Part shown: positions 1,514-4,500 of the stretch, piece after piece | How positions within the stretch are numbered: the first letter of the stretch is position 1 | Layout of the letters: every line of letters starts with the position of its first letter | Source: Thermogemmatispora aurantia | Lineage (GTDB): Bacteria; Chloroflexota; Ktedonobacteria; Ktedonobacterales; Ktedonobacteraceae | Assembly (NCBI RefSeq): GCF_008974285.1 | Contig: NZ_BKZV01000007.1 | Coordinates: 1-64,000 of the forward strand | Length of the DNA stretch: 64,000 nucleotides | Direction of reading: 5' to 3' | Translations under genes and position numbers: made by a program | Notes under the pieces: generated by a model | Told to the model about the DNA's origin: nothing | What the model saw: the letters and a program-made list of their open reading frames with translations, nothing else | The model's database searches: none

Positions 1514-4500
1514 TCATGATAGCCCTAGGCGAGAGAGCCATTCTTCAGCCTCTTCATCGCTCATGCTCTCTATCTTCTCAAGGAGAAGTCGGTCGACCTC
1601 TACGGCCAAAGCACGCAGCGAGCCACTCCTGAAGAGGATCTGAAGGGGCAGGTCGACACCAAATGCTTCTGAGAGGCGAAGCATGAGCTGTGCACCCAGC
1701 AGTGAGTTTCCCCCCAGTCTGAAGAAATTCTCATCAAGATTGACATGCTCTCTCTTTAGTAGAGAAGCTGCCAGCTCTGCAATTCTGGCTTCGACTGGAG
1801 CCCTGGCTTCTCTTTCTATGTGAACATCCTCACGTAGAATATCGGTCTCCTCTGGTTTAGGCAAGCAAGCACGGTCGATTTTCCCATGCTCATTGGTTGG
1901 CATTTGCTCCAGCCTTACAAATGTGCCTGGAATCATGTAGTCTGGCAAGTGCTCTCTTAAATACTGGTGAAGACTGTGCAGGGTAAGCTCTGCTCCTGGC
2001 CGAGGCACGAGGTAGGCGACCAGTTGAGCGGAGGAGGGATCATCGGGGGAGGGCTGATGAAGGAGGACGGCGGCCTCCTGGACGGCGGGGTGGGAGCAGA
2101 GGAGGGCCTCGATTTCGCCGAGTTCGATGCGGAAGCCGCGGAGTTTCACCTGTTGGTCGAGGCGACCCAAGAAGAGGAGGGAGCCGTTGGGGAGCCAGCG
2201 GACGAGGTCGCCGGTGCGGTAGAGGCGGGCGGAGGGGTCAGAAGAGAAGGGGTGAGGGAGGAAGTGCTGGGAGGAGAGGGAGGGCTGGCGGAAGTAGCCG
2301 GGGGAGAGGGAAGGGCCGCCGATGAAGAGTTCGCCGGGGACGCCGATGGGGACGGGTTGGAAGGAGGGATCGAGGACATAGAGGGAGCAGTGGGGGAGAG
2401 GGTGGCCGATGGGGGCGGTAGGGAAGGGGTCGGAGGGGGAGCAGAGATGGACGGAGGCCCAGACGGTGGCTTCGGAGGGACCGTATTCATTGAAGAGGGG
2501 GGTCTGAGGGAGAAGGGAGTAGTGCAGTTGCACGAGGGAGCGCGGGCAGGGTTCGCCAGCGACGATGCAGCAGCGCAGGGAAGAGAGCTGGGAGGGGGAG
2601 GAGTGCTGCAGGAGGAAGCGGTAGAGGGAAGGGACGGCGAGCAGATGGGAGATGTGGGCCTGCTGCAGGAGGGAGGGGAGCAGGGGGAGGTGGTCGGAGA
2701 GAGGGAAAGGAGGGAGCACGAGGGTGGAGCCGGAGCAGAGGGACCAGAAGATGCCGGCGACGGAGCTGTCGAAGGAGCAGGGGGAGAGGAGGAGGAAGCG
2801 GGAGGGGGGCAGGTGGTGGTAGAAGAGGAGGCGGGAGAGAGTGGAGGAGAGGAGATTGGTGTGAGAGATGGAGACGGCTTTAGAGGAGCCGGTGGAGCCG
2901 GAGGTGAAGATGAGGTAGGCGAGCTGGTCGGGGGAGCCGGAGAAGGGGAGGTTTTCGGTGGGGAAGGAGGAGAGGAGGGAGAGGGTGTCGGGGGAGTCGA
3001 GGAGGAGGAGGGAGGTGTGGGCAGGGAGGGAAGGCAGAGAGGGAGCGAGGGCCTGGCAGGAGAGCAGGAAGGAGGGCTGGACGTGGGAGAGGAGGGAGGC
3101 CAGGCGGGAGGGAGGAGTAGAGGGATCGAGGGGGAGGTAGAAGGAGCCGGCTTTGAGGACGGCGAGGAGGGCGATGAAGAAGGAGGGGGAGGGGGGCAGC
3201 AGGAGGGCGACGGGAGAAGAGGGAGAGAGGCCGAGGGAGAGCAGGAGGCGGGCGAGCTGATTGGCCTGGGAGTTGAGAGTGTGATAGGAGAAGGAGGAGC
3301 CGGAGGGCAGGTCCAGGAGGGCGCAGGAGGAGGGAGAGCGCTGGGCCTGGGCTTCGAAGAGGAGGTGGATGGCAGGAGCGGGGGAAGGAGGGAGGGTCTG
3401 GGGGGAGGAGCTGAAGGAGACGAGGAGCTGGTGGCGCTCCTCGGGAGAGAGGAGGGGGAGAGAGGCGAGGGAGCAGGAGGGATCGGAGACGAGCGAGGAG
3501 AGCAGGGTCTGCCAGTGGCGGGCGAGCCGGACAATGGTCTGCTCCTCAAACAACTCGCTGCTATACTCAAAGCGCCCGATCAATCTCCCATCGGGTCGGT
3601 CATCCACCTCCAGCGAAAGATCAAACTTAGATGTCCCCGCACTCACATCCATCTGCGTAATCGTCCAGCCCGAAGGCAGCGCTGGCAGCTGTGGCTCAAG
3701 CGTCAGCGCTACCTGGAACAGTGGATTCCACGCCGCAGAGCGCTCCACCTGGAGCTGCTCCACCAGATAGCTGAAAGGTATATCCTGATGAGCGATTGCT
3801 CCTATTACTTTCTCTTGCACCTGTTGCAATAGCGAGCGGAAGCTCGAACTGCCTGTCAACTTGCAAGAGAGCGGGAGCGTATTCAAAAAATATCCTGGCA
3901 TCCTGACAAACTCGGGACGTTGTTCACGGCTTCCCAGGACTGCTCCGACCACAATCTCCTCCTGCTGCGTATAGCGATACAACAGGAGCTGGAGAGAAGC
4001 CATCAGGACCATATAAAGCGTCATACCTTCCTCACGCGCCAACCTCTTGAGGGCCTCGGTTAGCTCCCTGCTCAATGCGAAAGGTACCATTCCCCCACGG
4101 AAGCTTTGAACTGGCGGCCTTGAGAAATCCGTAGGCAAATTAATCAACGCCGGTGCCCCTGCAAGCGCCTCTCGCCAATAAGCGAGCTGTTGATCAAGTA
4201 AGCTCTTATTGACAGAAGTCTGTTGCCAGAGCGTGTAGTCAGAGTACTGATAAGCTGGCTCCGGCAGAGGTGAGGAGCGATCAGCGCAAAATGCCTCATA
4301 GAGTGTCCACAGTTCTGGCAAGAAGACCTGGTAGAGAGTGACTCCATCGAAAATGATATGATGTAAAGTTAGATAGAGGCGATGGAGCCGATCCTCGACT
4401 TGAATAAGCAGACCGCGTACAAGAGGACCGTTTGCCAAATCAAAAGGAAGGCGAGCCTGCTCAGCAGCCAGGCGCTGAGCCTCTTTCTCTCGCTCTTCTG

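Follow-up and report, generated by a model that had tools for sequence, protein, structure and literature searches.

The window analysed here, 64,000 nucleotides at the start of a contig (C7) of the heat-loving bacterium Thermogemmatispora aurantia (Chloroflexota, Ktedonobacteria), carries part of a non-ribosomal peptide synthetase (NRPS) cluster in which one strand is purine-rich over about 1.5 kb. We found that this tract belongs to three C-A-T modules (M1, M2 and M3) that evolve in concert via intragenomic gene conversion, copying a tract of 0.7–1.7 kb from each other repeatedly. The skew follows homogenisation module by module, and homogenised glycosyltransferase, methyltransferase and transporter lipoprotein duplicates show the same skew. 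We read the purine strand as the footprint of recurrent intragenomic conversion among the C-A-T modules that is biased to G on one strand, rather than as a feature belonging to the A domain, and give this reading a probability of about 0.55.

Layout and composition of the NRPS tract

The cluster is the sole condensation-domain locus found in this genome (G000). The M1 gene was identified as an NRPS C-A-T module by its C, A, A_C and T domains with core motifs, using Pfam and motif checks (Table 1). The remainder of the second NRPS gene (A_C, T, TE) lies at positions 1–1525 of contig C1, and in T. carboxidivorans (G004) this gene is whole, reading C-A-T-C-A-T-TE.

Table 1 Features of the NRPS locus in the window and of duplicated loci elsewhere (R, purine fraction of the + strand)
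Feature	Position	Strand	Basis or remark
Homogenised G/purine-rich tract	2014..3573	+	Module positions 1316–2875; R; tract limits from blastn to the paralogous modules; 4-fold C 0.83
NRPS gene 1, single C-A-T module M1, 1124 aa	1514..4888	-	Pfam PF00668, PF00501, PF13193, PF00550
M1 AMP-binding core, A3–A8 motifs unbroken	2291..3358	-	PF00501 match, motif check
Start of second tract copy (M2), 99% identical to 3448–3573; contig ends inside	1..126	+	Self match G000:C7:1-126
NRPS gene 2, M2 C domain	2..1441	-	Pfam; blastn to M2/M3 of G001/G004
Weaker purine patch in M2 C domain	750..1170	+	R 0.65–0.69; counterpart is alignment 271–540, common to M2/M3 only elsewhere, identity 0.84–0.94
Stand-alone A-T gene within the cluster, unskewed internal control	6274..8319	-	R 0.47–0.57; AA-adenyl-dom
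Cytochrome P450 between stand-alone A-T gene and M1 gene, ordinary composition	4899..6146	-	NCBIfam matches; R 0.45–0.53
Tandem PMT/GT39-like glycosyltransferase genes	L040 6632–11735 (G000:C1:170.6–175.7 kb)		99.8% identical over 1558 bp
About 6 tandem methyltransferase genes	L026 1–5750 (G000:C6:111–117 kb)		N-terminal parts homogenised, C-terminal parts diverged
Tandem substrate-binding lipoprotein (SBP) arrays	L065 7846–11972; L143 1655–3973		Homogenised and skewed, in two Thermogemmatispora genomes
Rhs-repeat gene with HNH-like C-terminus, then tandem SUKH (SMI1_KNR4) genes	L031 11173–18186, L041 2201–7108 (G000:C4:100–112 kb)		Strongly G-rich coding strand; N-gap in assembly
NRPS of another family	L118 253–5077 (G013)		Two segments 99% identical; purine-rich coding strand, mirroring the window tract

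The tract is 75.7% purine on the + strand (R 0.757, GC 0.668), and its 300-bp windows peak at 0.82. Background 300-bp windows of the same genome have a mean R of 0.500 with an SD of 0.046 (20 stretches of 20 kb); in 500-bp windows sampled evenly over 1.42 Mb the SD is 0.039, and 0.05% of windows have |R−0.5|>0.2. No other sequence in the ~1.6 Mb sampled from this genome reaches the purine excess of the tract, the runner-up being the tandem SUKH locus on contig C4 (R 0.784). The original prediction, made from the letters of the window, had described the + strand as almost only G and A; the purine excess stands, but the description is overstated, as the longest purine-only run in the tract is 26 nt. 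It had also called the flanking NRPS parts normal, which holds for most of them and fails for the second tract copy at 1–126 and for a C-domain patch at ~750–1150 (R 0.65–0.68).

The coding strand of the NRPS is the C/T strand, and the purine/G strand is the template. At 4-fold sites of the coding strand, the tract has C 0.83, T 0.11, G 0.06 and A 0.00, compared with C 0.24, T 0.23, G 0.31 and A 0.22 in the C domain beside it in the same gene, and with C 0.38 and G 0.28 in background genes; silent-site C thus rises from ~25% outside the tract to ~80% within. Codon positions 1 and 2 are shifted as well, with pyrimidine fractions (Y) of 0.71 and 0.70 in the tract versus 0.53 and 0.53. As had been proposed, both synonymous and amino-acid choices follow the bias: S, L and P make up 17.5, 19.7 and 12.1% of the tract-encoded residues versus 6.8, 13.2 and 6.2% in 15 background genes, so that Ser and Leu together reach 37% and Pro 12%. 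The A3–A10 motifs are nevertheless kept, as predicted, with LAYLIFTSGSTG, NEYGPSE, YRTGD, GRLDQQVKLRGFRIELGEIE and PTNEHGKID all unbroken in M1.

Concerted evolution of the three modules

In T. carboxidivorans (G004), M1 and M2 share 99.2% identity across 1560 bp (module positions 1316–2875) and ~50% in their C domains. In the tract, the identity between M1 of G000 and its G004 ortholog is about 86%. Paralogs within a genome are thus closer than orthologs and the homogenised segments have discrete boundaries, as in the concerted evolution of bacterial multigene families. Trees computed with IQ-TREE group the C domains by module with strong support and group two A-tract segments by genome; conversion between modules therefore takes place inside each lineage. 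A repeatedly converted cassette was one of the origins suggested in advance, and the trees, identity profiles and change points bear it out in the form of concerted evolution of three modules. A mere resemblance among skewed sequences was rejected, since it cannot yield 97–100% identity with sharp ends where orthologs, alike in composition, reach 86%.

Skew follows homogenisation within genes

One end of the tract falls in the C domain, ~50 residues before its Pfam limit (tract from about residue 439, C to residue 489), and the other within AMP-binding_C (domain 925–1003, tract end at about residue 958), so that the tract is not bounded by domains. The stops that had been ascribed to a domain edge are edges of conversion tracts, which fall within domains and are not the same in every module. 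Change points for composition and for identity were computed separately. On the 3′ side, the skew of M1 and the M1/M2 identity both end at 2897, while in M2/M3 the skew ends at 3037 and the identity at 3051–3053; the 5′ change points agree less (1414 for skew versus 1351 for identity, ~60 nt apart). M2 and M3 remain skewed ~150 bp further than M1: beyond 2897, M1 falls to Y 0.51, whereas M2 and M3, which are 96–99% identical, keep Y 0.72.

M3 combines tract ends that are common with M1/M2 and a private substrate core (alignment 2071–2250, identity 0.52), in which the residues between A4 and A5 differ from those of M1/M2. Specifically, the M3 core has Y 0.53 versus 0.84 for M1/M2 at the same positions. 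The C-domain patch at 271–450, common to M2 and M3 only, has Y 0.64–0.71 versus 0.50–0.57 in M1. The uncopied parts, namely the M3 core, the T domain of M1 and most of the C domains, are ordinary in composition.

Identity and coding pyrimidine correlate per window with rho 0.73 in G004 and 0.47 in G003, and in a circular-shift test the observed r was reached by no shift in any of 5 modules. Restricted to the A domain, identity and skew show a weak rank correlation (rho 0.18, p 0.11), since there the half-converted windows carry some skew as well as the converted ones. A skew common to all A domains, which had been named as an outcome that would refute the prediction, was not found: the three converting A domains are skewed in their converted parts only, and the stand-alone A domain is unskewed, as are 20-kb stretches around other AMP-binding genes, duplicated loci excepted.

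Other duplicated families of Thermogemmatispora

Leads to other duplicated genes came from genome outliers together with blind samples. The PMT/GT39-like pair is 99–100% identical over much of its length within each of G000, G003 and G004, its orthologs being 72–95% identical. Its 4-fold G is 0.79 in homogenised versus 0.43 in diverged windows (rho 0.78, n=78), and the homogenised stretches at 240–480 and 1200–1320 are hardly skewed. The methyltransferase array has 4-fold C of 0.67 where homogenised versus 0.42, and the SBP array 0.69 versus 0.42. The tandem SUKH genes beside the Rhs gene have 4-fold G of 0.72–0.74, with duplicates 93–100% identical within G000, and probably belong with the homogenised skewed duplicates.

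Four of the six duplicate loci (at least 88% identity) that were chosen without regard to composition lie above the background 95th percentile of |GC skew|, a count that leaves out L040 and L041, which were picked as polypurine, and the NRPS itself. The corresponding binomial P of about 1e-4 is only rough, because locus sizes differ. Homogenised segments that are hardly skewed occur in L094 and L151.

Some side observations concern the sampled loci. The SBP lipoprotein array of G004 adjoins a dnaA gene. Tandem pentapeptide-repeat-like genes at L157 6449–9220 (G004) are 94% identical over 580 bp, with a skew of -0.26. A small G-skewed gene with no Pfam match follows an Rhs-like fragment at L092 3683–4489 (G000:C4:433.7–434.5 kb); no local duplicate of it was found, and it falls off the duplication rule unless a partner lies elsewhere. 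L094 (G000:C4:580–600 kb) also carries repeats that translate as FNPTSGLRGVPT again and again and are probably CRISPR arrays.

Converted NRPS segments in related genera

The association recurs in weaker form in related genera: in the NRPS of four related genomes (G009, G011, G012 and G013), GC4 is ~0.2 higher in segments at ≥95% identity. Across Thermogemmatispora and these genomes, converted and unconverted NRPS segments have GC4 of 0.83 and 0.59 (L010), 0.69 and 0.48 (L118), 0.76 and 0.51 (G009), 0.69 and 0.49 (L113), and 0.72 and 0.52 (L115), respectively. The strand asymmetry is strong in the NRPS of G013 (4-fold G 0.61 versus 0.30, with C at 0.08) and of G009 (4-fold C 0.54 versus 0.30, with G at 0.22), mild in that of G012 and almost nil in that of G011 (L113). 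E. coli rhsD, taken as an outside example, gave no comparable effect (G 0.53 versus 0.48).

Strand orientation and substitution pattern

G is enriched on the template strand of the NRPS, methyltransferase and SBP genes but on the coding strand of GT39 and SUKH; transcription direction does not decide which strand is G-rich. In G004, dnaA lies at 652 kb, and between 0.66 and 2.06 Mb most samples have a positive skew. With the origin placed by dnaA plus skew, the + strand would be leading at both the NRPS (1.90 Mb) and the GT39 pair (1.73 Mb), and G is on + at both. Among the 9 loci of G000 and G004 at ≥88% identity, 8 agree in sign with the skew of their neighbourhood, which is leading-strand-like. 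The orientation of G on the leading strand is suggestive only, because random 1-kb pieces already match in sign at 0.58, so that 8/9 gives P about 0.06, and the neighbouring skews are weak.

Substitutions at 4-fold sites of the tract, polarised by parsimony, amount to 6/47 for R>Y and 11/451 for Y>R (three segments pooled, the partly converted N-terminal M3 included), small counts from a method that errs toward pyrimidine under skew. They still favour pyrimidine and fit a composition that is held near equilibrium by a continuing bias, not an unameliorated import.

Origin of the skew

The step that we infer is the bias within conversion. The tract of M1, M2 and M3 is copied between modules over and over, and heteroduplex or repair synthesis during each conversion would be resolved with a bias to G on a fixed strand. 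This strand would probably be the leading one, because conversion would set out from broken forks in a fixed direction. Such a process would amount to GC-biased gene conversion with strand asymmetry, iterated until silent sites are ~0.75–0.83 one base. Wherever the modules are copied, both silent and amino-acid-changing sites have drifted to G on one strand and C on the other. A tentative extension, which we hold with less confidence than the reading of the NRPS tract, is that in Thermogemmatispora, and more weakly in other Ktedonobacteria, ectopic conversion may be replication-oriented and favour G on the leading strand, so that converting families would gain a G-rich or polypurine strand.

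The strongest rival reverses the causation: G-rich polypurine sequence would stall forks or cause breaks and attract conversion, the skew coming first and then spreading between copies. This would account for the same correlation between skew and conversion, and it agrees with substitutions that point to a near-equilibrium composition, not a rapid build-up; short-read assemblies also break or carry N-gaps in the tracts, though repetition alone would suffice for that. The rival requires that unrelated genes were skewed beforehand, some on the coding and others on the template strand, and the tract has few G4 motifs (7 overlapping starts in ~3 places) and mirror arms of ≤11 nt. Tract ends that differ at homologous positions (M1 2897, M2/M3 about 3045), with the skew ending alongside, and well-converted segments that are barely skewed argue against it, and we consider it unlikely.

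Selection at the codon or mRNA level, for C- or G-ending codons or for unstructured mRNA, could have set the composition, with conversion only keeping the copies alike. The direction of the skew flips by locus (C in the NRPS, G in GT39/SUKH), the shift extends to codon positions 1 and 2 and to amino acids, the composition switches within one gene at conversion edges, and two other parts of the cluster, the P450 and the stand-alone A domain, have ordinary composition. This explanation is quite improbable on these grounds, even though C-ending codons are the commonest 4-fold class in the background too (C 0.38). A drive by Chi-like oligomers was rejected, as no 4–8-mer is dominant beyond composition and the frequent words differ between families (GGAG/GAGG in NRPS and SUKH versus GGTG/GCTGG in GT39). 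The variable region of a diversity-generating retroelement, suggested by the absence of A at silent sites, was set aside since the other bases all change too.

A G/A-rich strand across 1.5 kb had raised the thought of triplex (H-DNA) or R-loop structures, in which case selection on structure would have shaped the tract. Homopurine mirror arms in the tract reach at most 11 nt, versus 8.3 (max 10) in shuffles, and purine runs are ≤26 nt. The G-rich strand is the template and the RNA therefore C/U-rich, the wrong orientation for a stable R-loop. With neither long unbroken homopurine mirror repeats nor a G-rich non-template strand in the tract, such an element is very improbable.

An imported cassette, also put forward beforehand, would stem from a donor with extreme composition and still be unameliorated, which would suit edges that are sharp and base usage unlike that of the remaining genome. 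The tract is present at the same locus in four Thermogemmatispora species (G000, G001, G003 and G004), with tract fragments at contig ends in G002 and G005. This synteny in at least four species, an ortholog divergence close to that of the C domains, the lack of decay to the genome mean among 4-fold substitutions and the same signature in other gene families of the same genome all argue against import. In one contig scan with the whole C-A-T protein, based on few peptide patterns, all loci at ≥58% identity belonged to Thermogemmatispora. The locus shows no patchy presence, discordant divergence or composition decaying to that of the host, and import is hardly credible.

All short-read assemblies are broken or N-gapped within tract copies, but the same tract recurs in independent assemblies with species-specific substitutions, and T. 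carboxidivorans PM5 (G004) carries the whole three-module locus on one PacBio contig with open frames throughout, so that the assembly or sequencing artefact foreseen at the outset is practically out of the question.

Relation to known systems

NRPS A domains are known to recombine within genomes, with the Acore as focus (Baunach et al. 2021, PMC8097286; wollamide/desotamide, PMC9205934). The locus described here resembles these cases in that exchange between modules or clusters takes place inside the A domain, and the divergent piece of M3 is the Acore, the classic exchange unit. Unlike them, it mainly shows homogenisation of the remaining A domain, extending into the C domain and, in M2/M3, to the A-T junction, and its converted tract carries a composition signature. 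The main text of Baunach et al. 2021 (PMC8097286) mentions neither gene conversion nor GC content nor purine.

GC-biased gene conversion in bacteria has been proposed (Lassalle et al. 2015, PMC4450053) and disputed (for example Ely 2021, PMC8153448). Our converted NRPS tracts share with it an elevated silent-site GC, GC4 being up by ~0.2 or more in Thermogemmatispora and the four related genomes. They differ in that the effect is strand-asymmetric, local, intragenomic and far above the genome-scale effect: in the Thermogemmatispora tracts one of G and C rises while the other falls or stays flat, and a near-symmetric rise of both was seen only in L113. Strand, paralogs and duplicates are absent from the main text of Lassalle et al. 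2015 (PMC4450053).

The skew probably has the same sign as the local replication GC skew, in which the leading strand is G-rich (8 of 9 loci), but it is 0.17–0.57 in most tracts versus 0.02–0.06 in their neighbours and is confined to converted tracts. To our knowledge, concerted evolution is normally treated as homogenisation without directional strand bias. The literature searched, which lies mostly outside subscription journals, yielded no description of a strand-asymmetric composition that is limited to converted tracts.

Since the tracts differ sharply from their own flanks, the disputed biased conversion of bacteria becomes testable inside one gene, and several independent families with both transcription orientations serve as replicates. 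If conversion causes the skew, strand composition would record conversion history and let the evolution of NRPS specificity be traced, and polypurine genes would no longer call for an explanation based on RNA or on structure. If the replication-oriented reading is also true, the skew would be a sequence-only reporter of past conversion, and biased conversion in bacteria would be strong enough to reshape proteins, as in Ser/Pro/Leu-rich A domains. The conversion tracts also help to explain why short-read assemblies break at these loci.
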